From a virus: a DNA stretch of 45,776 nt. This document shows, piece by piece, positions 24,294 to 45,602 of this stretch. The position numbers were made by a program, and so were the translations under genes. Below the pieces are notes generated by a model. That model had not been told where the DNA came from. It searched no databases and saw nothing but the letters and a program-made list of their open reading frames with translations. Within the stretch, counting starts at the first letter, position 1; each line of letters starts with the position of its first letter. The stretch covers positions 1 to 45,776 of IMG/VR virus record IMGVR_UViG_3300031673_006750. The stretch is one strand, 5' to 3'.

Positions 24294-25592
24294 ATGGTGA
24301 CGACGAAACAACCCTGGTCCGACGTGCTGACGGACCCGACGCGCGGCGGATCGCAAAATCTCTATAATTTATTGGCCGGGATCGGCGAGGGCGGGCAAGC
24401 GGACCCGACCGGCAAATTCGCGATGGGACCGCAGAACGCGTTCAGCGATGAGCAGATGCGGAAGTTCCAGACCTCGGGCTTGCGCAACCTACAGGCGGGG
24501 AACCGGGCGTTCAACGCCGGGGCGGGGATGTCGGCCGCGGCGCGCGGGGTGGCCGGGCCGGATCTGGCGACGATGCTGGGCAATCAGCAGTCGGCGAACA
24601 CGCGGGACACGCTGGCGAACATGCAATGGCAGGCGCAGCAGGCGGGGCAGAAGTTGGGGATGGATCAATACGATCAACTTCTGAAGGCGCTGGGAATAGT
24701 TGGGCCGCAGGCCACGACAGAGAGCCAGCAAAGTCTGGATGCGCTGCTGGCGGGGTTGCAAGGCGGCGAGGCGACGGGCACGGGAGAGGGAACGGCGGAT
24801 GCGGGGTACACGACGGCGGCGCAGCGGCAGGCGGCGGCGGAGTTGGCGGAGAAGACGCGAGAATTCGGCGAAGAGCAGAGCTTAGAGAAACTACTGGAAG
24901 GTTATCAGGAAGAGACCGGGACGACGGCGGAGCAGCGGCAGGCGGAGGCGGAGTTGGCACAATTGGCGGAGCAATTCGGGTTGACGCAGGAACAAGCCAG
25001 AACGCTTGCCGGATATGAAGAGGCCACGGGGACGACGGCGGAGCAGCGGCAGGCGGCGGCGGAGTTGGCGGAGAAGACGCGAGAATTCGGCGAAGAGCAG
25101 AGCTTAGAGAAACTACTGGAAGGTTATCAGGAAGAGACCGGGACGACGGCGGAGCAACGGCAGGCGGAGGCGGAGTTAAAGCAGGAGAGAATATTAGCCG
25201 GTTATGAAGAAGAAACCGGGACGACGTACGAGCAACGGCAGTCAAAAACGTTGAATGCGATCAACGTGGCCAATTCTTTATTACAGAATCCGAACCTAAA
25301 TCAATACGAGGCAGGAACGGGAAGCCACGATGAGGAATGGAGATACACAGAGCAGGCCATCGCCTTGCGCAAGCAGATCAACGCGCAGTATGAAATCATG
25401 GGATTGGAAGCGCCGTTTGATGAAGATGACATGGATGAAAACAAATGGCGGAGCGGAAACACGCCGCTGACGTTCGATCAAAACGCGACTTATAATTTGC
25501 AACAACAGCTCTACAACTTATGGAATAGGACAACGGGGACCACATCGACGGTATCGCCGACCGGCGGAGGAAATTGGAACGTGCGCTACTAA
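24294..25592 (+). CDS. Coiled-coil repeat protein, probable ejection protein
   Basis: The protein has 432 residues. The N-terminal 170 are Gln/Gly/Ala-rich. Residues 175-320 carry 37-residue repeats starting TAEQRQAAAELAEK and ending GYQEETGT, about three and a half copies, predicted as long helices. The C-terminal 110 residues are globular with WRYTEQAIALRKQINAQY. It directly follows the endolysin and opens a run of genes ending in a giant protein, an arrangement common for podovirus internal or ejected proteins. Confidence 0.6.
   Translation: MVTTKQPWSDVLTDPTRGGSQNLYNLLAGIGEGGQADPTGKFAMGPQNAFSDEQMRKFQTSGLRNLQAGNRAFNAGAGMSAAARGVAGPDLATMLGNQQSANTRDTLANMQWQAQQAGQKLGMDQYDQLLKALGIVGPQATTESQQSLDALLAGLQGGEATGTGEGTADAGYTTAAQRQAAAELAEKTREFGEEQSLEKLLEGYQEETGTTAEQRQAEAELAQLAEQFGLTQEQARTLAGYEEATGTTAEQRQAAAELAEKTREFGEEQSLEKLLEGYQEETGTTAEQRQAEAELKQERILAGYEEETGTTYEQRQSKTLNAINVANSLLQNPNLNQYEAGTGSHDEEWRYTEQAIALRKQINAQYEIMGLEAPFDEDDMDENKWRSGNTPLTFDQNATYNLQQQLYNLWNRTTGTTSTVSPTGGGNWNVRY
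24821..25158 (+). repeat. 222-base direct repeat inside the coiled-coil gene
   Basis: 24821-24934 and 25043-25156 are identical over 114 bases, 222 bases apart, with one mismatch just after the block (24935/25157) and similarity continuing beyond. Such identity on third codon positions points to a recent duplication or gene conversion, within a repeat unit of 74 codons. Confidence 0.9.
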
Positions 25593-27397: not shown

Positions 27398-30300
27398 ATG
27401 GCGCTGGATTACTCGACATTGCTGGAAGAGGCCCCCGCGGAGGCGGCGGGGCGCGGGCTGGATTATTCAGGCGTGCCGGATTATTCGGGCGTGCTGGATT
27501 ATTCAGGCGTGCCGGATTATTCGGGCGTGCTGGATTATTCAGGCGTGCCGGATTATTCGGGCGTGCTGGAAGAAGCGCCGCCGGCGGAGCGGCCCGGGCG
27601 GGCGCGCAAGGCGGGCTGGAGCAAGGTGATGGCGGAATCGACGCGGCGTGGGCTGGCGCAGTCAGCGCAGACCGTCGAGGACGTAGCGCGGAGGATAGGA
27701 CGGAAAACATTTAAAGCTAAAGGATTTTCTTATCCGGGTGGATTCATCCCGCTGAGCTATGGCGAAAGGAAACAGACGCAACCGGCGGTTGATGAAGGTA
27801 AATATGAACGAAAATTTCTAATTCCGCCGAGCGTGGAATTAGCCGAGGACTTGCCGCCGGCGGAGAAGAGCGCCTGGAGCCCAGCGCAGCGGATTGTCGG
27901 CGGCGCGTGGGAGAAAGGCACGGGGATGCTGCCGGAGCTGGCGGCGTTTGCCAGCATAGGCGGAAAACTGGCTCCCTTGCGGGCGGCGGGGTTGAAAGCG
28001 ACCGAGGCGATGGCGCCCGGCGTTTTGCGGTTGCTGGCCCGGCTGGGGGTCAAAGGCGGGGTCGGAGCGGCAACGATGGGCGGGGCGGAAGCGCTCTTGC
28101 GGCCCGATGAGCCGAAAGCGATAGCCAGGGGGACCGGAATTGGGGCGATTTTGGGGCCTACGGGGCCATACGCGGGGCCTGTGGTCCTTGGCGGGCTGTC
28201 GGGCCTTGAAGCGCTCTTGGGCGGCGCTACGGGCCAGGAAGCCCTGGAAGAGGGGGCAAGCACGGGATTGAGCCTGGCGCCGTTCAGCCTGCTTCACGCC
28301 TTGCAGATGGCGGGGCGGGGCGGACGTGCGCCTGAAACCGGACAAAATAGACAAATTGGACGAACAGGAACGGAGATCGTGCCTCAACGTCCGCGAATCA
28401 TTGACATTCTGCCGCCGGAGCCGTCGAGGATCGAACATCGGCCGGCGTATCCCGAACGGGCGTTGCCGGATCTGGGCGAGCTGGGGCCGGGGCGGAACGT
28501 GATCCCGGAGAGCGGGCTGGGGGTGTTCGAAGCCGGGCCGGAGGGCGAAGTGTATTTTCGGGACACGCCGCCGGTGCGTCCGCCCGATCCGTGGATGGCG
28601 GGACTTGAAGCGCCGGATCCGTGGTTGCGGGGACTTGTGCCGCCCGAGCGGCCGACGCCGGAGATGCCGGCGGGACGTGGCGCACGCGACTTGGCGCCGG
28701 CGCCGGAAGAGCCGGAGTTGCCACGGCCGGCGGAGCGGCCGACGCCGAATTTCCCGCGGCCGGAGCGGATTGCGCCGCCGGAAGCGGTAAAGAGGCCGGA
28801 GCGGGTGATTGTGAAGCAAGACGGGACGCCGTTCGCGAGCGAGCAGGAAGCCTTCCGGGCCGGGATCACGCGGTTTGCGGTGGTGAGGCCAGTGCGCGCG
28901 CGGAACGGGTGGGGATACGTGCCAATTGAGACAACAGGAGGGCAGGGCCATGCCGAAGCGGTACGAAGCGATACGGGACCGGTTGGCGAAGAAGATGTCG
29001 TACGACGCGGCGCAGGAGCGGGCGGCGAGGATATACAACGCCTCGCGGAAGAAAGGCGAGCCGCCTTTGAGCAACAAGCCGCACAAGAAGGGGGCGGGGA
29101 AGAAGGTCAGTTACCAACACCCGTTCGTGCGGCACAATTAGGGGCGGCGGGGCTGGACTATGCCGGGGCGCTGAGGGAGCCGCCGACCACGGGAGAGCAA
29201 GCACCACAAGGGCAAGTAGCGCCGCCCGCCGCCGCGCCGGTCGCCCCGCCCCCCGCTCAAGAAGCCAAACCCCCGGCGGCCAAGCAGCCCTGGGAGATGA
29301 GCAGGAAAGAATGGTGGGACAGGGGACAGAAACCTATCTATCCTGGGCAGAAACCGCTCTCTGATACGGAACACAGCAGAGAGCAATGGCCATTAGTTCA
29401 TGAACGATATGTCATGAGAGCAATTGAAGAAGGCAAGTCCGTTCCCCGCGCCGTGCTGGAAGAGTATAAAGGCGAGCCGTGGGCGGACGCGGCGCTGGCG
29501 AAAATGGGAAAGCCCGCAGAAGTTGGTCCCCCGGTCCCCGTCGCGGGGCCGGTGCCGGGTGCCGCGCCCGCCGGCGGCACTCCAATGCCGGACATGTTGA
29601 AAGAGCGGCGGCGGTTGCCGAGGCCGGGGCGTGGGGAGACGGGGGCGATCATCAATCCGATCGAGCCGTTGACGCGGCTATTGCGCGGGCCGGCGGCGCG
29701 GCATCTGACGGCGAAAGGGCGGCGGTGGATCAGCGAGAAGGCGGAGATCATGGCGCGGACGGGCTATTTGCTGGAACGCGGGAAGACGGCGTTCATGAAC
29801 GCGGGGGCGACCGGGGAGCGGGTGTTGCGGGAGACGCGCGAGACGGAGGCGTGGGGAAATGCGCTGGCGGGCAAACAGACGATGGATTTCGAGAAAACGG
29901 CCGACAAACTGTATCGGAAGGGGATACGTTGGTTGAGCAAGGGCAATCAATTCGCGGAGCTGTATCGACGGAGCGGCCCGGAGGCGATGCCGACGGCGGA
30001 GACGAAGGCATTCGCGGAGATGTGGAATCGCATTCACAATGAATCGGGCAAGCTGGCCGAGGAGTTGGGGGTGATGGTGGAAGACCCGGACGCGCCGGGG
30101 GGACGGCGCAGATTCATCAATGGGAGGATGCCCTGGTATTTCCCGGAGATGAAGACGCCGGCCTTCATCGAAGCCGTCAGTAAAGGAAGGGGGCCGGTTT
30201 TTGACGCGATCCTAAAGGAAACCGGGCGAACGCAGGCCGAGATCCAGGGATTGCTGGAAGAAAACGATATTCAAAGCGCGCTGCGCAGGTTCGGCCCGTT

Positions 30301-33753: not shown

Positions 33754-34158
33754 ATGAAACGGGTTTTCGGTTTGATGCTCCTGCTGGGATGGGCGGGGGT
33801 TTTTTCATGGCCAGGAGGCGCGGCGGGGCAAGCACAGGAGAATCGCGATATTTATTATGCGCCGGTGATTTACACGACAAGCGACGATGGTCAGACGATC
33901 ACGGCCTGGCAGTTTATCCAACCCGGCTGGCATGACGCCGAGATGCCGGCGTTGGCGCGGACGCGGGTCTTTCACGCCGATGGACAAACCAGTGAAACCA
34001 AGGTCAGCGAGAGCGCGATTCGCGAGAAAACGGCGGCGCGGTCGGGGATCCGGACGGATCCCGAGCGAGGGTCGTATATCGGACGGACCATTTCCCTGAG
34101 CCAGGCGGTTCGAGAAAACAAAGAAGAGCTGGCCCGGCTCAAGGCGAAAAACAATTAA
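33754..34158 (+). CDS. Small exported protein, candidate lysogenic-conversion gene
   Basis: A 134-residue protein has a signal peptide (MKRVFGLMLLLGWAGVFSW, likely cut near GAAG). The mature part is small and beta-rich to about 70 (YYAPVIYTTSDDGQTITAW), with a charged helical C-terminus. GGGAGG lies about ten bases before the ATG. It has its own promoter and meets the integrase gene tail to tail, sharing TTAA at the stops. A separately promoted exported gene beside the integrase is a classical moron location. Function unknown. Confidence 0.7.
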   Translation: MKRVFGLMLLLGWAGVFSWPGGAAGQAQENRDIYYAPVIYTTSDDGQTITAWQFIQPGWHDAEMPALARTRVFHADGQTSETKVSESAIREKTAARSGIRTDPERGSYIGRTISLSQAVRENKEELARLKAKNN

Positions 34159-34988
34159 GAAAAAACGCGATCCATGGCCTGGCGGACGCGGGTGACGTCG
34201 ATCAATTTGTGGACATAGGCGCGGGTGATGTTGATGTCGGCGTGGCCCAGGGCGGACTGGATCACTTCCAGGGGGACTTCATTCTCGCCGAGGATCGTGG
34301 CGTAGGAGTGGCGCAGGCCGTGGACGTAAACACGCTTGGCCAGCCCCGCGGCGTGGGCGTAACGCGGCAGGGCGTGAGTGACGGCGCTGGAATCCAAGGG
34401 CCGGCCGGGATCGCGCAGGGACGGGAAAATCCACGGGGTTTGCAGCCGGGCGGATAGGGCGAGCCAGCCGTTGAGGATGATGGCCGCTTCGGTGGGCAGG
34501 ATAAGAAACTGCTCTTTACGGCCCTTGGTTTTGACGTGCAGGAGCCGGTCGCGCAGGTTCACGTCTTCGCGACGCAGGAGCCGGATGGCATCGCGGCGAG
34601 CGCCGGTGAAAAAAAGCGCGGCGTAAAGCGCCTTGTCGCGCCGGCCGCGCATCGTGGTCGGGATAGCGGCCAGGATCCGGCGAAATTCCTCGCGGGAGAG
34701 GGTGGGATAGACGGGGGCCGGGGCGAAGCGGAAATGGAGAGAGGCGGTCCAGTCCTCGCAGAGACCGAGCGTGGCGCAGCGATGCACGTAGGCTTTGATG
34801 TGGGTCAATGCGGTGGCGCGGGTGCGTTCGCGGCGGTAGGTCGAGAGATGTTGGAAAAGCTCAATCTGTGGGTCATGGTTTTTCGCAAACTCAATAAATG
34901 GAACGAGGAACGTCTTGTAGGTGCTGATCGTCTTGGGGTCAAGTCCGCGCAGCCGGCAGTCATTCAGGAAAGGTTCGAGGAAATTCAT
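34155..34988 (-). CDS. int: Tyrosine integrase
   Basis: The protein has 277 residues from the ATG at 34986-34988, preceded on this strand by GGAGAAC. Reading may begin 19 codons earlier, but that start has no site. The N-terminal SAM-like core-binding domain (FLNDCRLRGLDPKTISTYK) is followed by the catalytic domain: R in TGARRDAIRLL, HGLRHSYAT for H-x-x-R, GHADINITRAYVH for the last His and the nucleophile Tyr. All catalytic residues are present. It recombines attP with a host attB. The start faces a tRNA-His fragment at 35101-35150. The gene is convergent with 33754. Confidence 0.93.
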   Translation of the reverse strand: MNFLEPFLNDCRLRGLDPKTISTYKTFLVPFIEFAKNHDPQIELFQHLSTYRRERTRATALTHIKAYVHRCATLGLCEDWTASLHFRFAPAPVYPTLSREEFRRILAAIPTTMRGRRDKALYAALFFTGARRDAIRLLRREDVNLRDRLLHVKTKGRKEQFLILPTEAAIILNGWLALSARLQTPWIFPSLRDPGRPLDSSAVTHALPRYAHAAGLAKRVYVHGLRHSYATILGENEVPLEVIQSALGHADINITRAYVHKLIDVTRVRQAMDRVFS

Positions 34989-35100
34989 AATACAGTTCTC
35001 CATTACGATTTCGCAAAATGGGTTAAATCGTTTAATATGAATCACCTAATCATTTTATTTATCGACAGTGGCAACAGGAACTTGAGCGGGAACGTTAAAT

Positions 35101-35150
35101 TGAGATTGTGGCTCTGGAGGCCGGGGGTTCAAGTCCCCTCACCCACCCCA
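35101..35150 (+). other. attP: attP core: 3' half of a tRNA-His(GTG)
   Basis: The sequence matches a tRNA from the anticodon arm to CCA. The anticodon loop is TTGTGGC with GTG. The T-arm GGGGG-TTCAAGT-CCCCT closes with four GC pairs and one GU pair. The acceptor strand is CACCCAC, then C and CCA. C73 and the GTG anticodon are diagnostic for tRNA-His. There is no 5' half, so this is not a gene. It lies directly before the integrase start and would restore the host tRNA gene on integration. Confidence 0.82.
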
Positions 35151-35688: not shown

Positions 35689-35958
35689 ATGCCATATCAA
35701 TCAAGCAAACTGAAAGACGCGCGGTTGGCCACGGGGATGACGCTGAACAACGTGGCGGTGGCCTTCGCGACACGGTTTCAGCGGCCGTATTCGCGGCAGC
35801 AGATTTCGGACTGGGAAAGCGAGAAAGGGCCGACGCCCGGGGTGCGATTCCTGGAAGTGTTCGCGGAGTTGTACCACGTGCCGATCACCTATTTTTTGGA
35901 GGACGAGACCGAGCCGGAGCCGGTGGGGAAAGTGAAGGCGGCGTTAGGGAAGAAATGA
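35689..35958 (+). CDS. Cro-like XRE regulator
   Basis: An 89-residue protein with a full helix-turn-helix: SSKLKDARLATGMTLNNVA, then FATRFQRPYSRQQISDWESE, and then helices ending ITYFLEDETEPEP. It is small, single-domain, first in the early operon and divergent from the repressor-like frame, the position of Cro. It likely binds the operators in the intergenic region. Its stop codon is the first TGA of a seven-base tandem repeat. Confidence 0.8.
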   Translation: MPYQSSKLKDARLATGMTLNNVAVAFATRFQRPYSRQQISDWESEKGPTPGVRFLEVFAELYHVPITYFLEDETEPEPVGKVKAALGKK

Positions 35959-35986
35959 TGAATGATGAGTGATGAATGATGAATGA
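35954..35986 (+). repeat. Junction heptamer repeat 1
   Basis: Four and a half seven-base units (TGATGAA, one with TGATGAG) span the stop of the Cro-like gene and lead to the dCMP deaminase ribosome site AAGGAGG. Because 7 is not a multiple of 3, ATG and TGA occur in all three frames. Confidence 0.9.
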
Positions 35987-36004
35987 ATAAGGAGGAATAG
36001 CGCG

Positions 36005-36499
36005 ATGCAGTGGGACGAGTATTTCATGGGGATTTGCGAGGCGGTGGCGCGCAAGAGCAAGGACGAGTCGAGCCGGTTCGGGGCGGTGATCGTCGGCCCG
36101 GGTCACGAGATTCGCAGCACGGGATACAACGGCTTTCCGCGCGGAGTGCTGGAAAAATACAGCACCGAACCCGGCGAGGCGGTGGATCCGGCCCTGGCGG
36201 AGCGGATCGCGGCGCGGCGGGTGCGGCCGGAGAAATATTTTTACGCCGAGCACGCCGAGCGCAACGCGATCTATAACGCCGCGCGCCACGGAGCCCCGCT
36301 GGAAGGCTGCACGATGTACGTCGACGGGTTTCCGTGCGCCGACTGCGCGCGGGCCATCATCCAGGCGGGTCTCCGGCGGGTGGTCTGTCCGGCGCCGGCG
36401 GGGGGCTACGGCGAGCGGTGGAAAGAGTCCATCGAGCACGCGCGGACCATGTTCCTGGAGGCGGGAGTGGAGGTGGATGTGACGATGAATGATGAATGA
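36005..36499 (+). CDS. dCMP/cytidylate deaminase
   Basis: A 164-residue protein, with AAGGAGG before the ATG. The zinc and proton-shuttle motif is HAERNAIYNAA (HAE at 83-85) and the second zinc half is FPCADC (C111, C114). It makes dUMP from dCMP for thymidylate synthesis. The early phage operon is a common home for such enzymes, which balance precursor pools or allow modified DNA. The C-terminal residues MNDE come from the junction repeat that holds its stop. Confidence 0.85.
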   Translation: MQWDEYFMGICEAVARKSKDESSRFGAVIVGPGHEIRSTGYNGFPRGVLEKYSTEPGEAVDPALAERIAARRVRPEKYFYAEHAERNAIYNAARHGAPLEGCTMYVDGFPCADCARAIIQAGLRRVVCPAPAGGYGERWKESIEHARTMFLEAGVEVDVTMNDE

Positions 36500-36520
36500 T
36501 GAGTGATGAATGATGAATGA
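36484..36520 (+). repeat. Junction heptamer repeat 2
   Basis: Five units of GATGAAT/GATGAGT type. The deaminase stop (36497-36499) lies inside, and the next gene starts 36 bases after the repeat. The sequence is almost the same as repeat 1. Confidence 0.9.
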
Positions 36521-36556
36521 GGAAATTAAACCACGGAACGGAGCGGAGGTGTGAAG

Positions 36557-36787
36557 ATGGCGACGAATGAACCCATCACTCTGGTGCGGCCGGAGGAGGA
36601 TCCGGGGTATGAAGAAATTGATTCCATGAAGCTACCCAATGGCACGGAGATGCGGATGTTTAACGACCGGCTGACGGGGAGTTCGTTTTGCGTGGACGAG
36701 CGCGACGGGCAGACGATCCAGAGCAAACTGTGGCAGAGCCGGGCGGGATTTAAGTATGCGCCGATGCCGGAACATGGAGTGGAATGA
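36557..36787 (+). CDS. Small acidic protein, unknown
   Basis: A 76-residue protein starts MATNEPITLVRPEEDPGYEE, with GGAGGT eight bases before the ATG (a GTG six bases earlier is in frame). Acidic and without hydrophobic core segments; the middle MRMFNDRLTGSSFCVDERDG resembles a beta hairpin. It overlaps the next start by one base (TGATG). Unknown function. Confidence 0.6.
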   Translation: MATNEPITLVRPEEDPGYEEIDSMKLPNGTEMRMFNDRLTGSSFCVDERDGQTIQSKLWQSRAGFKYAPMPEHGVE

Positions 36788-36963
36788 TGAGAATCCGGAA
36801 TCTGCTTTACCGGATTGAGGAGCCGACGCCGATGCAGCGCGGGGTGCGGATCGGGAATCGGCGCTGGTGGGACGTGCCGCTGTGGGTCGTCGTCGCGCTG
36901 GCGGCCGGAGTGCTGGTCGGGCTGATCGTTTGGCCGTTGTTGCATAGTTTTGCCGGGCGGTGA
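36787..36963 (+). CDS. Small membrane protein in the early operon
   Basis: A 58-residue protein starts MRIRNLLYRIEEPTPMQRGV at TGATG. A basic, tryptophan-bearing segment (GNRRWWDVPLW) leads into one helix (VVVALAAGVLVGLIVWPLL). An early inner-membrane protein could act in superinfection exclusion. Frame and overlap are clear; function unknown. Confidence 0.6.
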   Translation: MRIRNLLYRIEEPTPMQRGVRIGNRRWWDVPLWVVVALAAGVLVGLIVWPLLHSFAGR

Positions 36964-36990
36964 CCTCCGAGCCGTGAATGCGGGGAGGAC

Positions 36991-37053
36991 GTGGTGGAGT
37001 GGGAGAAGCAGGAAGATTACAGGCGGGAGATGGAGAATCTACAAGCGCTTTAA
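36991..37053 (+). CDS. Possible 20-residue peptide
   Basis: A GTG-started frame encodes a charged amphipathic peptide (EKQEDYRREMENLQAL) behind GGGGAGG. It is short, with a non-ATG start, but has good amphipathicity and fills an otherwise empty gap. Weakly supported. Confidence 0.25.
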   Translation: MVEWEKQEDYRREMENLQAL

Positions 37054-37057
37054 AAGA

Positions 37058-37080
37058 GCCGCCTGCTGGAGACAGGCGGC
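37058..37080 (+). promoter_or_regulatory. Perfect intergenic hairpin
   Basis: GCCGCCTG (37058-37065) and CAGGCGGC (37073-37080) pair fully around CTGGAGA. No T run follows, so it is more likely an RNA stability or processing hairpin than a terminator. It lies 75 bases before the next start. Confidence 0.6.
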
Positions 37081-37154
37081 CCGGATCACGAGGCCCGTTG
37101 AGGGCGTCAATCATTGGAACAAGGCCAGGATACGGCCGGGAAGGCGAGAAGTCA

Positions 37155-37817
37155 ATGGGAAATGCGTTGAAAGAGGCGCTGAAGGGCAAGAATTCAGAAT
37201 CCAGAATTCAGAATCCAGAAGCCAGGAGCCAGGAACCGGTGGATGGGCGGGTGGCGGCGGCGCGGATCGTGAACGACGTGGCCGCGGCGGATCCCGTGAA
37301 GGCGATGGAATTGCTGATGGGGATCGTCGAGGGGGTGGAGATCGAGGCGGTGATCGGGGGGGCCTTGATGCGGCTGCGGCTGGCGGCGGGGACCGATCCG
37401 ACGACGGTGGCGCCGCTGCTCAAGGCGATCGATCCGGGCGTCAAACTGCGGGACGATTTCCCGCGGGGGGGCGCGTATGGCAAGCGGGAGACGCAACTGA
37501 CGCGCTGCGTGATGATCGAGTTGGACGCCAGCCGCGATTCGTTGTTCATCAGCCTGATCTGCAATAACGGAGAAAGCCGCAAGGTGGCGGTCAGCAAAAA
37601 GTCTTCCGGCGAATTCATGGGCAAGCTGGAAGCGCTGGGCAAGGTCGGCGACAAAGGACTGACCCAATTGCAACACGCGATGGAAACCAAGAAAAGCGTA
37701 TTGGTGGCCCTGGGCGAGGAAGAGCAGTTCGGGGCGCTGTATTACGAATTCGAGGGCAAGGCGTATCTGGACGGGTTGCAGGCGGAGCCGCCGGCGGAAG
37801 TCGAGGCGAAGGAGTAA
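37155..37817 (+). CDS. Unknown early protein with repeat-derived N-terminal insert
   Basis: A 220-residue protein starts MGNALKEALKGK. Residues 12-28 are encoded by a heptamer tandem repeat. The rest is globular alpha/beta with RLAAGTDPTTVAPLLKA, then TRCVMIELDASRDSLFISL. It lies between the small early genes and the exonuclease. No family recognised. Confidence 0.65.
   Translation: MGNALKEALKGKNSESRIQNPEARSQEPVDGRVAAARIVNDVAAADPVKAMELLMGIVEGVEIEAVIGGALMRLRLAAGTDPTTVAPLLKAIDPGVKLRDDFPRGGAYGKRETQLTRCVMIELDASRDSLFISLICNNGESRKVAVSKKSSGEFMGKLEALGKVGDKGLTQLQHAMETKKSVLVALGEEEQFGALYYEFEGKAYLDGLQAEPPAEVEAKE
37189..37236 (+). repeat. Heptamer repeat inside a coding region
   Basis: Units AATTCAG, AATCCAG, AATTCAG, AATCCAG, AAGCCAG, GAGCCAG follow one another. 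The region is translated into a polar Asn/Ser/Gln/Arg stretch at the N-terminus of the 37155 gene. The same period as at the junctions but a different unit. Confidence 0.9.
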
Positions 37818-37822
37818 TCGAT

Positions 37823-37870
37823 AGGACGCATGGGACTTATGGGACGCATGGGACGGATGGGAAGGATGGG
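37823..37870 (+). repeat. Nonamer junction repeat
   Basis: Nine-base units GGACGCATG, GGACTTATG, GGACGCATG, GGACGGATG and GGAAGGATG follow the stop of the 37155 gene. Each unit holds an ATG in the same frame. The next gene starts about 90 bases later. Confidence 0.88.
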
Positions 37871-37956
37871 GATTTGGCGACACCTGCCAGTCGGTATGAC
37901 GAAGTGGCGTGGCAGCCGGGAGAGCACCGGCAACTATTCGAAAAGGAGAAAAGATT

Positions 37957-38811
37957 ATGAATAACGAAAACAACGGCAAGGCGCGGCTGATCGTTTTGGA
38001 TATTGAGACGTATCGGACGCGGGATGCGGAGTTGGTGGAACAGATCAGCCAGGAGGCGATCGACAAGCGGCCGGCGCAAAACGCGCTGAAGGAACTCAAA
38101 CTGGAATGGGACACCGAGACGGCGCGGGAGGCCAGGGCGGCGGAGGCGCTGGCCAAGACGGCGGTGGATCCATTGCTGGCGGAAGTGCTGTGCTGCGCGG
38201 TCGCGGTGGGGGCGGACGGTGGGCGGCTGGAATTTGAAGGCATGACCGAGAGCAATGACCGGCCGATGCTGGCGCAACTGGCCGAGGATCTCAATCAGAT
38301 GGCTGGGCCGCGGACGATTTGGGTCGGGCATAACATCGAAGGGTTTGACCTGCCGGTGTTGCTCAACAGGTGGCGGCATTATGACATCCGGCCGCCGGAG
38401 CATTTCCCGATGCCGGTGCGCCACGGCTGGCGGGGATGGGTCTATGACACGATGTTGCGTTGCCCGAGCAAAAACGGGATGGGATTCGTGAGCCTGGACG
38501 ACGCCTGCGCGGCGTATGGGATCGCGGGCGAGAGCATCTTCTGGCGTGGTGAGCCGATGGACGGATCGCGGGTCGGCGAGGCGTTCAAGGCCGGCAAATA
38601 CGACATGATCATGCGTTATTGCGATCAGGACGTGCAGACCACGCGGGCGCTGTATCTGCGCATGACGGCCGGGGACACGTGGGGGACGTATGGGCTGGCG
38701 GACGAGGTAGCGCAGCAGATCGCGGCGATCGAAGCCAGCGGGCAGAGCGAGGGGGTGCGGGCGATCGCAAAATGCGCGGTGCTGGAGCGGGCGGGGCTGG
38801 TGCCGAAATGA
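37957..38811 (+). CDS. PolB-type 3'-5' exonuclease (DnaQ-like)
   Basis: A 284-residue protein; AAAAGGAG precedes the ATG. Exo I is VLDIETY (D15, E17). Exo II is WVGHNIEGFDLPVL. Exo III is YCDQDVQTT near 220-226. This is the family of stand-alone nucleases related to the PolB exonuclease domain. It would trim 3' ends in recombination or repair and is placed before an SbcC/RecF-like ATPase. Full-length. Its stop lies in a heptamer repeat. Confidence 0.85.
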   Translation: MNNENNGKARLIVLDIETYRTRDAELVEQISQEAIDKRPAQNALKELKLEWDTETAREARAAEALAKTAVDPLLAEVLCCAVAVGADGGRLEFEGMTESNDRPMLAQLAEDLNQMAGPRTIWVGHNIEGFDLPVLLNRWRHYDIRPPEHFPMPVRHGWRGWVYDTMLRCPSKNGMGFVSLDDACAAYGIAGESIFWRGEPMDGSRVGEAFKAGKYDMIMRYCDQDVQTTRALYLRMTAGDTWGTYGLADEVAQQIAAIEASGQSEGVRAIAKCAVLERAGLVPK

Positions 38812-38838
38812 TGAATGATGAGTGATGAATGATGAATG
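38808..38838 (+). repeat. Junction heptamer repeat 3
   Basis: Four units (TGATGAA, one TGATGAG) starting at the exonuclease stop. The next gene's frame is open through it and its likely start is 38879. Confidence 0.9.
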
Positions 38839-38878
38839 GAAAACGAGTTTGGACGGGGTCCAAGAAAGGCATGAATCG

Positions 38879-39166
38879 ATGCTCAAAACCGGAGAATCAG
38901 TCATCGTTACCTTTGCTGGGGATTCAGCACAGTTATTTCGTAGCATAATCAAAGACACCAAGGAAGAGCGGATCGGCGTGGTTCACAAGAATGCGGTTGG
39001 ATTTTGGGTTTCCCCATCTGGACGGAAATACTCAAATCCAATCCCGGCAGGTTTTGAAGTATTGGAACGGAAGATCCAGGATCCCTGTATCCCGAGCGAA
39101 GAGTGGGAAACGCCCGAACAACACCAAAAAATTATCATCCTGAACAAAACGAGGTATCATTCATGA
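38879..39166 (+). CDS. Small beta-rich protein before the ATPase
   Basis: 95 residues from MLKTGESVIVTFAGDSAQLF, with AAAGG nine bases upstream; earlier in-frame ATGs lie in the junction repeat. Strands predominate (RIGVVHKNAVGFWVSPSG). The gene is richer in A/T than its neighbours. It overlaps the ATPase start by four bases. Unknown function. Confidence 0.6.
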   Translation: MLKTGESVIVTFAGDSAQLFRSIIKDTKEERIGVVHKNAVGFWVSPSGRKYSNPIPAGFEVLERKIQDPCIPSEEWETPEQHQKIIILNKTRYHS

Positions 39167-40719
39167 AAAAGAGCAATGAAAGCGAGCGGATGCGGATTCT
39201 GGCGCTCATGGTACACAACCTCAAGTGCATCTCGGCCGTGGAGATTAACTCATTCGGCGACATCCTGGAAATCCGAGGGAAGACCGGACAGGGGAAGACC
39301 GCCATTTTGGAGGCCATTGAAGGGGGATTGCGGGGGATCGATCCGTCGATGGTCAGGAACGGGGCGGGGGCGGCGGAGATCACGCTGAGGCTGAATCGGG
39401 CGACGATCTGCCGGGTGGTGCCGGCCGACGGCAGCCGGGAGACGTTGATGGTCAGCGATCCGATCACGGGCAAGCCGATCGAGAAGGCGAAGGATTTTTT
39501 GAAGGCGATCTACGGCCTGCACAGCTTCCGGCCCGTCGATTGGGTAAGGCTGGGCGGGGGCGAGGCGCGGGGGCGGACCGAACGCTTGCGGGCGCAGCGG
39601 GACCAGCTCCTGGCGGCGATGCCGCTCGCCTTGGAGCCGGAGGAAGTGGCCGAGGAAGTGCTGGGCAAAGGCGCGGGTCTGCGGGAGGCGCTGGAAGAGG
39701 TCAATCTGGACGCGATGGATTTCAGCGGCCACGCGCTGGTGATCTGTTCGGCCTTGGAAACGGCGTGCTACGAATATCGCAAATTGCAGAACAGCCGGGC
39801 GGAGGACGCGGAATCGCTATTGAAGCTCACGTTGGCGCCGGAGCGGTTGGTGGAGTCGGACCTGGAAACCTTGCTGGCGAGCCAGGAACGGGGCAGTCAG
39901 GTGTATCACCGGGCATTGGGGCAACGGGAGAGCCGGCAGACAATCACGGCGCGGCGGGACCAACTGGAGGCGCAGATCGAGAAAGACGGGGCCGATCTGC
40001 CGGAAAAGGCGGAGCTGGCGAAGGAGCTCAAGGGCCAGAAGACGCGGCGGACGGAAATCGACCTGGAAGTGGCCAGGAAGCGGCAGGAAATACGTGAGTT
40101 GGAGAAGGAGAGTGAGGCCCTCGTGGCGACGATCGGGCGGCTTGAGGGGCTGGAAGCGCGGCTGGAGGCCCATGAAGCGAGGAAGGCGGAGTTGGCCGAG
40201 ATCGAGCAGAGCCTGGGGTCGGACGTGGCGAGCGACGAGGAGGTCGCCAAGCTGGAGGCCGGGATGGAGAAAGTCAAGGGATTGATCCGGGACCGGCAGT
40301 TGCAGGAGGCGCATGACGCGGCGGCGGAGAAGGCCATGGTGGCGCGGCAGAAATCTGAACGGTATGACGCGCTGGTGAAATTGTTCCGGGACGAATTGCC
40401 GAAAAAACTGATCGGGCGGATGGCGATGCCGGTGGAAGGGCTGGCGGTGGACGGGGACGTGATCAAAATCGACGGAATCCCGCTGCATCAATTAGGGACG
40501 AGCGAACAGATGCGAGTGGGAGTGCTGATCTGGGCGAGCTTAAATCCGCACACGGCGTTCGTGCCGGTGGACGGGGCGGAGTCGATGGGGCGCGAGGATC
40601 GGCTGGCGCTGGCCCAGGCGGCGCAGGAGTTGGGCCTGCAACTGATCATGACGATCGTCGATGATGCCGCGGAGCCGGGGGAAGGGCGGATCGTGATGCG
40701 CAACGGGGAGGCGGCCTAA
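39163..40719 (+). CDS. SbcC/RecF-like ATPase with coiled coil
   Basis: The protein has 518 residues, starting at ATGA overlap. The N-terminal lobe has RGKTGQGKTAILEAIEGGL, with Walker A at 39-46. A coiled coil runs about 240-410 (ELKGQKTRRTEIDLEV and later). The C-terminal lobe has an ABC-like end, FVPVDGAESMGREDRLALAQ, a variant Walker B, and LQLIMTIVDDA. Such SMC-like phage ATPases pair with nucleases in recombination. Here the adjacent PolB-type exonuclease is the likely partner. No Mre11-type nuclease is present. Confidence 0.82.
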   Translation: MKKSNESERMRILALMVHNLKCISAVEINSFGDILEIRGKTGQGKTAILEAIEGGLRGIDPSMVRNGAGAAEITLRLNRATICRVVPADGSRETLMVSDPITGKPIEKAKDFLKAIYGLHSFRPVDWVRLGGGEARGRTERLRAQRDQLLAAMPLALEPEEVAEEVLGKGAGLREALEEVNLDAMDFSGHALVICSALETACYEYRKLQNSRAEDAESLLKLTLAPERLVESDLETLLASQERGSQVYHRALGQRESRQTITARRDQLEAQIEKDGADLPEKAELAKELKGQKTRRTEIDLEVARKRQEIRELEKESEALVATIGRLEGLEARLEAHEARKAELAEIEQSLGSDVASDEEVAKLEAGMEKVKGLIRDRQLQEAHDAAAEKAMVARQKSERYDALVKLFRDELPKKLIGRMAMPVEGLAVDGDVIKIDGIPLHQLGTSEQMRVGVLIWASLNPHTAFVPVDGAESMGREDRLALAQAAQELGLQLIMTIVDDAAEPGEGRIVMRNGEAA

Positions 40720-40724
40720 TAAAC

Positions 40725-40764
40725 AATGATGAATGATGAATGCGGAATGCGGAATGCGGAATGA
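40725..40764 (+). repeat. Junction heptamer repeat 4
   Basis: Two TGATGAA units followed by three units of the type TGCGGAA, ending ATGAAAG. It lies between the ATPase stop and the DUF488 start. Two heptamer types lie side by side here, so the element has mixed history. Confidence 0.9.
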
Positions 40765-40769
40765 AAGCC

Positions 40770-41153
40770 ATGAAAATATATACGTTGGGTTACTGGGGAC
40801 GGACCGTTGAGGAAGTGCGTGGGATCGCCGAGGATCGCGACGGCATCCTAATCGACGTGCGGCTCAGTCCTCTCTCGCGGTTACCGCAGTGGAACCTTTA
40901 TTCACTCGCGTTCACATTACGTGAGCGCTACCGCCATATTTCTTATTTTGGCAACGCCAATTTTAAAGCAGGCGGGCCGTTCAAGATAGTGGATTTCGAG
41001 ACCGGGAAGGCGATTTTGCAGGACATCTTGGATCAACATCCCGAACGTAATCCGATCCTCATGTGCGCCTGCAAGGATGTGCATCGGTGTCACCGCCAGT
41101 TGGTGTCGGATCTGTTATCCCGCGCGTTCGGTTGCGCGGTGGAGCATTTATAA
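40770..41153 (+). CDS. DUF488 family protein
   Basis: 127 residues from MKIYTLGYWGRTVEEVRGIA (an ATG three codons earlier is possible). The family pattern is IYTLGY, then IDVRLSPLSR, then FNANFK-like GNANFKAGG, then LMCACKDVHRCHRQLVSD with the Cys pair and His. DUF488 proteins are widespread and their role is unproven; several lie near nucleases or defence genes. The gene is complete. Confidence 0.85.
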   Translation: MKIYTLGYWGRTVEEVRGIAEDRDGILIDVRLSPLSRLPQWNLYSLAFTLRERYRHISYFGNANFKAGGPFKIVDFETGKAILQDILDQHPERNPILMCACKDVHRCHRQLVSDLLSRAFGCAVEHL

Positions 41154-41167
41154 AACTGGGACACGCT

Positions 41168-41251
41168 ATGACACGAACACAGACAAAACTGCCGGGCATC
41201 CGGCGATTGAAACAACTGATCGAGTGGGGGCCGGAAACGCTGGAGGAGTAA
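41168..41251 (+). CDS. Possible 27-residue peptide
   Basis: The frame reads MTRTQTKLPGIRRLKQLIEW and ends ETLEE. The site before it is weak (GGGAC). Codon choice is protein-like and it fills the gap before the structured region. The frame is also open upstream through the DUF488 end, so the start is uncertain. Confidence 0.35.
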   Translation: MTRTQTKLPGIRRLKQLIEWGPETLEE

Positions 41252-41285
41252 ATTTCCGTCCCTGGTGGCGGAATAATCTTACGAA

Positions 41286-41396
41286 AGGAGAAGCTCCTAT
41301 TTGCATGATGGGCATGGGAATCGCCCATGAGACGGCTTGTAAGTCAATCATTGGGGCGGGCCGGAAGACAGGGTATCAGCACGGACCGGCCCGCCC
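41286..41396 (+). promoter_or_regulatory. Structured intergenic region with three hairpins
   Basis: AGGAG (41286-41290) pairs with CTCCT (41294-41298), masking a ribosome-like site. ATGGGC (41308-41313) pairs with GCCCAT (41323-41328). GGGCGGGCCGG (41354-41364) pairs perfectly with CCGGCCCGCCC (41386-41396). Three hairpins in 111 bases, in a gap of 196 bases without a convincing gene, suggest an RNA element or a weak terminator (AATTAT follows). Confidence 0.55.
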
Positions 41397-41406
41397 TAAT
41401 TATCAA

Positions 41407-41436
41407 CCATGGAAATCACGGAAATCACGGAAAAGG
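41407..41436 (+). repeat. Short nonamer repeat before the 41448 gene
   Basis: AAATCACGG is repeated twice in tandem after ATGG, with a partial third copy that merges with the ribosome site AAAAGGAG of the next gene. A third junction with a short tandem repeat. Confidence 0.7.
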
Positions 41437-41447
41437 AGAAAAAGACT

Positions 41448-41942
41448 ATGGGAAGAAAGAGAAAAATGGACGGATACAGGGCATTGGGGCCGCTGCCGGA
41501 GGGCGGGCCGCCGGTGGGCAGGGCAAACAAAAAAGACGCCGCGCGGGCGCAGGAGGCGGTCGAGCGGGTGAAGGCCAATCCGCCGCCCCAGGCGCTGGCG
41601 CCGGGGGTGAAGACGCCGACGGTCGCGTTGCGGCGCTTCGTGGCCAAAGACGAGTCCGATGTCTGGCAATCGATCTGCGCGGTGGCGGCGCGCCAGTGCG
41701 TGGAACTGCTGGACGCCAAGCGCGACGACATCGCGAGGGCTTATCAACAATCGATCGAGGATATTGACGATGATCGCAAGCAAAAGTACGGCGTGAATCT
41801 GGGGGTTTCGATCACCGGCGATGACCCGAAGCATTACACGGTGGCGGTCAAGATCAGTTTTGCGATCAAGACGACGGAAAGCATCGAGACGCAAGTGGCC
41901 GTGGGGGGCGATCTGGTCGATGACATGGAAGCCGCGTCATGA
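41448..41942 (+). CDS. Unknown protein coupled to RusA
   Basis: A 164-residue protein with AAAAGGAG before the ATG. Basic, Pro-rich first 60 residues, then helical AVAARQCVELLDAKRDDIAR and two strands (NLGVSITGDDPKHYTVAV; KISFAIKTTESIETQVAV). It overlaps rusA by four bases (ATGA), suggesting a functional partner such as a single-strand or junction binding factor. No family recognised. Confidence 0.65.
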   Translation: MGRKRKMDGYRALGPLPEGGPPVGRANKKDAARAQEAVERVKANPPPQALAPGVKTPTVALRRFVAKDESDVWQSICAVAARQCVELLDAKRDDIARAYQQSIEDIDDDRKQKYGVNLGVSITGDDPKHYTVAVKISFAIKTTESIETQVAVGGDLVDDMEAAS

Positions 41943-42502
41943 GCGAGCGGTTGGCGATTGCCTTTTTCGTACCCGGGACGCCGGTGGCGCAGCCGCGGCC
42001 CCGGGCGCGGGCCTATCTGGTCAAGGACGAAAACGGCGCCTACATGCGGGACCGGTTTGGCCGGCCGGTCCCGCGGGCGCAGATCTATGATCCGGGGACG
42101 GCGGACTGTTGGCAAGGGGCGGTGCGCGGGGCAGCGCGGCCGTATGGCCCGCCGGCGCCGTTTGAAGGGCCGATGCACGTGCGGCTGGAAGTGCGGCTTC
42201 CGAGGCCGAAATGCCATTATAGGGAAGGGCGGTTTTTCGATCGGTTGCGCGAGGATGCGCCGCAGTGGCCGGTGCAACGACCGGACATTGACAATCTAGT
42301 CAAGGCGATTTTGGACGGTCTGACGGGCATCATGTGGCAGGACGATGGCCAGGTCTGCCAGCTGGAGGTGGTCAAGTTCTTTTCGAGTTCGCCCGGGGTG
42401 GTTGTGGAGTTGGAGCCGTTGGGAATGAGCGGCGAAGATCAATTGGAGTTGGAGATGGGGCTAGAAGAGAGTGATGAGTGCGAAGTGATGAATGATGAAT
42501 GA
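41939..42502 (+). CDS. rusA: RusA-type Holliday junction resolvase
   Basis: The protein has 187 residues. RusA pattern: FFVPGTPVAQPRPRAR at the start; the active-site region RPDIDNLVKAILDGLTG with D116, D118 and D126; then MWQDDGQV with D135/D136. Basic residues lie between. It cuts four-way junctions in recombining or replicating phage DNA and so helps packaging. The C-terminal 25 residues are acidic and end MNDE, from the junction repeat. It overlaps both neighbours by four bases. Confidence 0.9.
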   Translation: MSERLAIAFFVPGTPVAQPRPRARAYLVKDENGAYMRDRFGRPVPRAQIYDPGTADCWQGAVRGAARPYGPPAPFEGPMHVRLEVRLPRPKCHYREGRFFDRLREDAPQWPVQRPDIDNLVKAILDGLTGIMWQDDGQVCQLEVVKFFSSSPGVVVELEPLGMSGEDQLELEMGLEESDECEVMNDE

Positions 42503-42503
42503 A
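42470..42503 (+). repeat. Junction heptamer repeat 5
   Basis: Units of TGATGAG, TGCGAAG, TGATGAA, TGATGAA hold the rusA stop and the HNH start as an ATGA overlap (42499-42502). The repeat itself supplies the coupling signal. Confidence 0.85.
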
Positions 42504-43134
42504 GAATCCGCAGAACAGCAAAAAAGTATCAACGACAATGCGTAAATCCGCCAAAATTTCCCCAAACCGTAAACCAATACCGCCAAAGACACGTTTTAAG
42601 ATATTCAAACGAGACGAATTCAAATGCCAGTACTGCGGACGCACGCCGCCCAATGTGATTCTTGAGGTTGATCACATTATTCCAATAAAGAATGGTGGCG
42701 GAAATGAAGAAATGAATTTGCTTACTGCGTGCTGGGAATGCAACCGGGGTAAGGCTGCTAAATCCCTAAACTCCGTTCCGGAAGGGTTAAATGAGCAAAT
42801 TCAAAGGGAAACCGAAAGGCTCGCCCAGGTTAAGCAATTCAATAAATTCCTAATGGAACAGAGGAAATATATTGATCAGACGATCACCAGAATTGGCCGA
42901 TATTGGTATGATAATTTTATCAGCGAAAAAGGAAAAAACACATTTAATAGGGAACGTGAAGCATCGATAAGGCTATTTCTTTCCAAGTTGCCCGAAGCAA
43001 CGATCTTAAATGCCGTTGATATCGCGATGCGGAGAAAACATCCATATTCTAAAGATGACGAGAACACCTTTAAGTATTTTTGTGGAATATGCTGGAAAGA
43101 AATAAAGGGATCTGGACAAGGGTGTATATCATGA
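42499..43134 (+). CDS. HNH endonuclease
   Basis: The protein has 211 residues. The N-terminal 35 are basic. KRDEFKCQYCGRTPP begins a zinc HNH domain: C43/C46; DHI at 58-60; N73; CWEC at 78-81. The family's beta-beta-alpha-metal site is complete. A helical, Lys-rich C-terminal 110 residues follow, with no known name. The gene is richer in A/T than neighbours and could be a mobile or recently acquired gene; the place after rusA could also mean a recombination role. Confidence 0.85.
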   Translation: MKNPQNSKKVSTTMRKSAKISPNRKPIPPKTRFKIFKRDEFKCQYCGRTPPNVILEVDHIIPIKNGGGNEEMNLLTACWECNRGKAAKSLNSVPEGLNEQIQRETERLAQVKQFNKFLMEQRKYIDQTITRIGRYWYDNFISEKGKNTFNREREASIRLFLSKLPEATILNAVDIAMRRKHPYSKDDENTFKYFCGICWKEIKGSGQGCIS

Positions 43135-44704: not shown

Positions 44705-44820
44705 GCATTTACTGGCGGACGGAAAATATCACGCTGCACCTGAAGGGTGCGCTGGACGTGGTGCGGCGGCGAATCGAGGACGATTGCCCGCTGTTTAACC
44801 GTGAGAGGAGCAAAAAATGA
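44701..44820 (+). CDS. Small protein before the radical SAM gene
   Basis: A 39-residue protein: MSIYWRTENITLHLKGALDV, then basic RRRIEDDCPLFNRERSKK. It overlaps both neighbours by ATGA (start at 44701; stop at 44818-44820). Double overlap strongly supports translation. Function unknown; perhaps an accessory to the radical SAM enzyme. Confidence 0.6.
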   Translation: MSIYWRTENITLHLKGALDVVRRRIEDDCPLFNRERSKK

Positions 44821-45602
44821 TTTTAATTTATCGCCCAAGCGGCCGGGCGCGGGAGTATTCGCCGCTGGCGCTGAATATTTACAAGGGCTGCGATCATGGA
44901 TGTATTTATTGCTTCGCGCGCCGGATGCCAGGGGCGCCGGAGCCGTGGGAGAAAGCAATTCCGCGACGGGAACTGTGCGCGGCGCTGAGTCTGGAGTTGG
45001 AGCATCGCCGGGAACCCATCACGCAGCAGGTGCTGCTCTCGTTTACCGGAGATCCGTATTGCCAGGCCGAGCGACAATTCAAAATCACGAACGAAGTCCT
45101 TGGTATTCTGCTGGCCTATCAAGTGCCCGTGGCGATCCTGACCAAGGGGGGTGATCGTTGTCTGGATGATGTCCACCTGTTCAAGCGCTTCGAGCGGATA
45201 AAGGTCGGCGCGACGCTGACGTTCTTGAACGAGGATCCGATTTGGGGCGAGAGCCAGGAATGGGAGCCGGGCGCGGCCGATCCGCAAGACCGCCTCGATA
45301 CCCTGAAGGCGTTGCATCGGGCGGGGATCCGGACCTGGGCCTCGTTTGAGCCGGTCCTGGATCCCGAGCAGAGTTTGGAACTCATGCGGCGCGGTCTGGA
45401 TTGCATCGATGAATACGCGGTGGGGCGCTGGAACCATGATCCGCGAGCTGAAGATATTGACTGGCTGGATTTCGCGGCGCGTGCGGTGGCGATCCTGCGC
45501 AAGGCGGGCAAGCCGTTTTACATCAAGGCCGATCTACGCAAGTCATTGCCAGTGGGATTCCTGCGCCCGGAGGAAGCCGATCAGGATGCGTTGCTGGTTT
45601 AG
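44817..45602 (+). CDS. Radical SAM enzyme, SplB-like
   Basis: The protein has 261 residues. NIYKGCDHGCIYCFARRMPG holds C25, C29 and C32 (CxxxCxxC), the 4Fe-4S site. LLSFTGDPYCQAE and VPVAILTKGGDRCLDDVHL fit the TIM-barrel of the SPL/COG1533-type radical SAM group; the family also includes spore photoproduct lyase, but length and context do not fix the substrate. In a phage it may repair or modify DNA, or alter a protein. It is the last early gene before the membrane protein. Confidence 0.82.
   Translation: MILIYRPSGRAREYSPLALNIYKGCDHGCIYCFARRMPGAPEPWEKAIPRRELCAALSLELEHRREPITQQVLLSFTGDPYCQAERQFKITNEVLGILLAYQVPVAILTKGGDRCLDDVHLFKRFERIKVGATLTFLNEDPIWGESQEWEPGAADPQDRLDTLKALHRAGIRTWASFEPVLDPEQSLELMRRGLDCIDEYAVGRWNHDPRAEDIDWLDFAARAVAILRKAGKPFYIKADLRKSLPVGFLRPEEADQDALLV

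Follow-up and report, generated by a model that had tools for sequence, protein, structure and literature searches.

Heptamer arrays at stop codons in a phage early operon: probable members of a widespread class of polar intergenic repeats

Tandem heptanucleotides dispersed in a bacterial genome are known from the short tandemly repeated repetitive (STRR) sequences of cyanobacteria, whose units differ from those treated here. The GGGNATC heptamers of Xanthomonas and Nostoc obey the same location rule as the arrays described below (Rehm et al. 2015, PMC4692102), in a paper that also mentions Calothrix heptanucleotides. TAACTGA direct repeats of the Beggiatoaceae lie mostly upstream of start codons, with some overlapping stop codons (MacGregor 2015, PMC4679880). 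The SPADE survey (PMC6344855) describes heptamers as the most abundant intergenic tandem repeats across a wide range of prokaryotes, with no known function, in passages that give no rule of placement or polarity. The subject here is a set of TGATGAA-type heptamer arrays, found at five junctions of the early operon in IMG/VR virus record IMGVR_UViG_3300031673_006750 (45,776 nt; the whole record is called the window below). A literature text search for the string TGATGAATGATGAA returned no occurrence. The five arrays probably belong, as phage copies, to a widespread class of polar intergenic heptamer repeats, and they were probably formed by expansion in 7-nt steps after a stop codon. The arrays and the genes that precede them are as follows.

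35689-35958, plus strand: HTH regulator gene (Pfam/PHROG: HTH, transcriptional repressor)
35954-35986, plus strand: TGATGAA array 1, holding the stop TGA 35956-35958 of the HTH regulator gene
36005-36499, plus strand: dCMP deaminase gene (PF00383, 4.6e-24)
36484-36524, plus strand: TGATGAA array 2, holding the stop TGA 36497-36499 of the dCMP deaminase gene, whose product has C-terminal MNDE
37957-38811, plus strand: PolB-type 3'-5' exonuclease gene (PF10108, 2.3e-12)
38807-38838, plus strand: TGATGAA array 3, holding the stop TGA 38809-38811 of the exonuclease gene
39163-40719, plus strand: AAA ATPase gene (phrog_1499, 2.8e-48)
40725-40763, plus strand: mixed array 4, two TGATGAA units and then GGAATGC units, 5 nt past the TAA 40717-40719 of the AAA ATPase gene
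41939-42502, plus strand: RusA gene (PF05866, 1.2e-23), product with C-terminal MNDE
42486-42507, plus strand: TGATGAA array 5, holding the RusA stop TGA 42500-42502 and a possible HNH start, ATG 42499

All five arrays share one orientation, and none has a partner. An earlier note on this DNA had reported the heptamers at these five junctions, with the upstream stop inside four arrays and just before the fifth, and both observations hold: a search for TGATGAATGATGA with at most one mismatch gives 14 plus-strand matches in the window, against 0.07 expected from shuffles (maximum 1). The note missed that an identical 32-nt sequence, AATGATGAATGATGAGTGATGAATGATGAATG, occurs with the same odd G in arrays 1, 2 and 3; these three are thus copies of one another, and the five arrays are not five independent cases. 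Its statement that the repeat places TGA and ATG in all frames is correct for the plus strand of three or more units, while the reverse strand (TTCATCA) has no stops and no ATG, GTG or TTG. MNDE does end two proteins as it had noticed, dCMP deaminase and RusA. Relatives of the dCMP deaminase have their C-termini at positions equivalent to residues 160-205, and its MNDE therefore falls in the tail that usually varies.

Exact TGATGAA arrays occur in 37 viral stretches and in at least 120 bacterial genome stretches; phyla among the bacterial matches listed include Bacteroidota, Acidobacteriota, Planctomycetes, Chloroflexi, Aminicenantes, Verrucomicrobia and others. Exact 20-nt matches number 17 to 502 per genome in the twelve genomes examined whole, with overlapping matches counted. 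The full window 32-mer is present in two viral contigs, and also in loci of one Chloroflexi and one Prevotella genome (L055, L082). The bacterial loci used below, selected through exact long matches, do not form a random sample, and several arrays come from the same genomes. Period 7 accounts for 434 arrays, as compared with 1-36 for each other period from 4 to 12, an excess that is partly due to choosing loci for heptamers. As expected of heptameric intergenic repeats, the unit is a 7-nt tandem repeat, the arrays are mostly intergenic and all five window arrays lie at junctions. Arrays inside a called coding sequence (CDS) make up 22 of the 152 genome TGATGAA arrays, and in every case they are on the reverse strand.

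For gene calling we used a codon-scored caller in place of length-only calling, which had given antisense open reading frames (ORFs). Checked on E. coli, the codon-scored caller recovered 25 of the 32 annotated stops and placed 18 starts exactly, so distances to stops are firmer than distances to starts. An upstream same-strand stop lies -30 to +10 nt from the 5' edge of the array in 52 of 70 bacterial loci, while 16% of random noncoding positions in the same loci fall within that range of an upstream stop. We then compared stops on the two sides within -40 to +25 nt, orienting arrays by their G-rich strand. TGATGAA arrays were near a 5' stop in a fraction of 0.76 and near a 3' stop in 0.11. 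The corresponding values were 0.76 and 0.12 for GGAATGC, which contains no stop on either strand, 0.56 and 0.17 for other heptamers, and 0.67 and 0.09 for other stop-free heptamers. On the 3' side, stops on the opposite strand do not lie close to the arrays.

Because stop-free heptamers are anchored to upstream stops equally well, the stops within the unit do not drive placement. Overlap with the stop does depend on the unit, occurring in 32 of 71 TGATGAA arrays, 6 of 34 GGAATGC arrays and 7 of 27 arrays of other stop-free units, presumably because TGATGAA terminates any frame. The earlier idea of all-frame stopping survives to that extent: TGATGAA, being self-terminating, can overlap a gene end, but its stops are not the cause of its position. 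In the genomes, and for all five window arrays, the array lies within 50 nt of a sense-strand stop and nearer the 5' ORF. The junction preference is real and withstands the refuting condition set in the earlier note, in that arrays in other genomes are distributed non-randomly relative to gene ends.

The arrays also show strand polarity. The sense strand of stop-anchored arrays holds more G than C in 72 of 80 cases for TGATGAA, 26 of 29 for GGAATGC and 44 of 55 for other units, counts for which no G-strand orientation was used; G exceeds C in 52% of the 30-nt regions after array-less stops. Neighbouring arrays within 150 nt form 58 inward pairs and 4 outward ones, and 20 inward pairs are made of one shared unit and are therefore able to fold. 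Perfect or near-perfect inward inverted pairs of TGATGAA arrays, with short loops, were seen between genes at loci L059, L066, L069 and L077; at L066 a hairpin lies between the arms of the inverted pair. Some GGGNATC repeats likewise form inverted pairs (PMC4692102), but those repeats consist of quadruplex-forming G runs, whereas TGATGAA has no G runs. The present arrays differ further from the GGGNATC repeats in having many units, in many phyla, with phage copies and with turnover of the unit at orthologous junctions.

Downstream starts in the bacterial loci are not anchored to the 3' edge of the array, their median distance being about 130 nt. Two window genes have Shine-Dalgarno sites of their own beyond the array.

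35990-36007, plus strand: Shine-Dalgarno (AAGGAGG) with the dCMP deaminase start, apart from array 1 and downstream of it
36543-36559, plus strand: Shine-Dalgarno (CGGAGG) and start of p78, GTG 36551 or ATG 36557, downstream of array 2

The other three junctions offer in-frame starts that lie outside the array. A start inside an array is possible for HNH alone, where ATG 42499 overlaps TGA 42500. The ATGA overlap reported there exists, and it is the only window junction at which a reinitiation-type stop/start overlap is possible, but the in-frame ATG 42538 could serve as the HNH start instead. TAACTGA resembles TGATGAA as a heptamer with stops in all three forward frames, some sets of which overlap the stop of the upstream gene. 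TGATGAA, unlike TAACTGA, keeps to upstream stops rather than to starts. The TAACTGA arrangement, with the repeat immediately 5' of a start and no Shine-Dalgarno, does not describe the window arrays, because genome starts are unanchored and two window genes have a Shine-Dalgarno beyond the array.

Orthologous junctions in Chryseobacterium show how such arrays change. At the junction after one conserved gene, TGATGAA is found in two species, TTGATAG in three, and ATGATAG and AGTGAAT in one each; one more species shows a short, degenerate stretch there, and most of the rest are array-less. Close species can thus differ in their heptamer at one and the same position. Proteins encoded next to an array end in KIRKQMMNDE, KIRKQLIVDS or KIRKKLNSE, as compared with KIRKDF. 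The presence of an array goes with an altered protein end, so the array reaches into the last codons. At a second junction, where the end of the gene hardly varies (CMMT), arrays have been gained and lost between the stop and a terminator-like hairpin. Single Chryseobacterium genomes examined hold several different heptamers each, and this multiplicity of units per genome is a sign of local expansion rather than of a single mobile sequence. The notion of a unit concerted across the genome was rejected on the same count of several heptamers in each genome examined.

We infer that duplication in 7-nt steps builds the arrays up locally, within the untranslated spacer that follows a stop, with the 5' limit of the array set by selection on the protein. 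TGATGAA would be tolerated at the gene end, or a few codons inside it, because it supplies TGA in every frame. Within the phage, one 32-nt array would have been copied between at least three junctions. A stop inside the repeat is then mostly a consequence of array position and sequence, and not a sign of a translation-restart adaptor. Three points weigh against this account. Strict inward polarity and the preference for period 7 are unexplained by simple slippage. The anchoring to stops could come partly from short stop-to-terminator intervals, and array-less junctions can have very short spacers. Finally, no close phage relative covering the early region was found, so that gains and losses of the phage's own arrays are not traceable: viral contigs yielded no close relatives of the AAA, exonuclease and RusA proteins, and the terminase search returned one identical 13-kb record (L161), compared around the terminase, plus distant ones.

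Because slippage alone leaves the inward polarity and period 7 unexplained, we keep a role at the RNA level as a serious rival, although we consider it unlikely. The array would be a polar signal of the 3' untranslated region, for example one whose C-rich strand enables Rho to end antisense transcription that comes in at the 3' end of a gene, or one whose inward pairs form a stabilising hairpin. The C-rich strand, TTCATCA, is without G and has evenly spaced YC dinucleotides. Polarity that is strict whatever the unit sequence, the 58:4 ratio of inward to outward pairs with 20 of one unit and foldable, and the position of arrays between stop and terminator-like hairpin all suit such a signal. 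The free gain and loss of arrays among species at one junction does not, nor do the arrays of the phage operon, which all point one way with no partner. Cyanobacteria are not known to have Rho, which counts against the Rho version. Heptamers are similarly located in Nostoc, a cyanobacterium (PMC4692102). It is also improbable, at about the same level, that inward heptamer arrays serve generally, in the intergenic regions of bacteria and phages, as sequence-flexible boundary elements that act on RNA 3' ends or antisense transcription and in which period, polarity and position at the gene end are maintained while the unit turns over.

Identical direct repeats flanking early genes, such as the dCMP deaminase gene between arrays 1 and 2, might instead serve as gene-cassette boundaries, allowing recombinational gain or loss that leaves a working stop. 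Arrays 1-3 do flank whole genes with their identical 32-nt segment, and a crossover joining array 1 to array 2 would keep the upstream stop and the downstream Shine-Dalgarno intact. We think this quite unlikely as the explanation of the arrays, since the searches gave no relative in which a cassette is swapped or missing, and bacterial arrays of the same type lie between ordinary conserved genes. The chances are poorer still that TGATGAA is kept by selection as an all-frame stop cassette, halting readthrough and frameshifted ribosomes in every frame. Its more frequent overlap with the stop (32/71, as against 6/34 and 7/27 for stop-free units) would fit, as would the stops contained in TTGATAG, ATGATAG and AGTGAAT, which replace it at the first Chryseobacterium junction, but stop-free heptamers show the same anchoring and polarity, and most Chryseobacterium relatives are array-less. 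The earlier note had proposed a modular adaptor, in which the heptamers end any upstream frame and permit reinitiation in any downstream frame, so that genes could be swapped without frame matching. ATG and TGA in all frames, the possible ATGA overlap at 42499 and the stops inside four arrays had suggested it. We now find it highly improbable: starts show no anchoring to arrays, dCMP deaminase and p78 each have a Shine-Dalgarno site of their own, the other three junctions have in-frame starts available outside the array, stop-free heptamers are placed in the same way, and arrays in Chryseobacterium appear, vanish and switch unit between flanking genes that persist.

Past the integrase gene, the plus-strand early operon consists of HTH regulator, dCMP deaminase, p78, p59, p220, PolB-type exonuclease, p114, AAA ATPase, DUF488, p177, RusA and HNH. 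Two further features of the window are these.

34155-35045, minus strand: integrase gene
37189-37234, plus strand: AGAATTC/AGAATCC heptamer array inside the CDS 37155-37817 (p220), near its 5' end, stop-free on the coding strand

The sequence at 35105-35150, adjoining the integrase gene, resembles the 3' end of a tRNA gene (GGGGGTTCAAGTCCCCTCACCCACCCCA) and is probably the phage attachment site; ARAGORN found no complete tRNA for it. Nonamer arrays stand at two further early-gene junctions, 37830-37870 and 41411-41433 (ATGGGACGC type, GGAAATCAC). Long tandem repeats with 111-nt and 36-nt periods occur in structural-gene reading frames at 24810-25177 and 27453-27570. An ORF at the end of the early region, 44817-45602, would encode the cysteine motif CDHGCIYC, typical of radical SAM proteins.

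The rules found here, namely anchoring to upstream stops with or without stops in the unit, a G-rich sense strand, inward pairing and turnover of the unit at fixed positions, narrow the explanations for heptamer arrays and allow those explanations to be tested in cultivable genera such as Chryseobacterium. The phage copies show that heptamer arrays also sit within a mobile operon, where identical copies could act as recombination sites.
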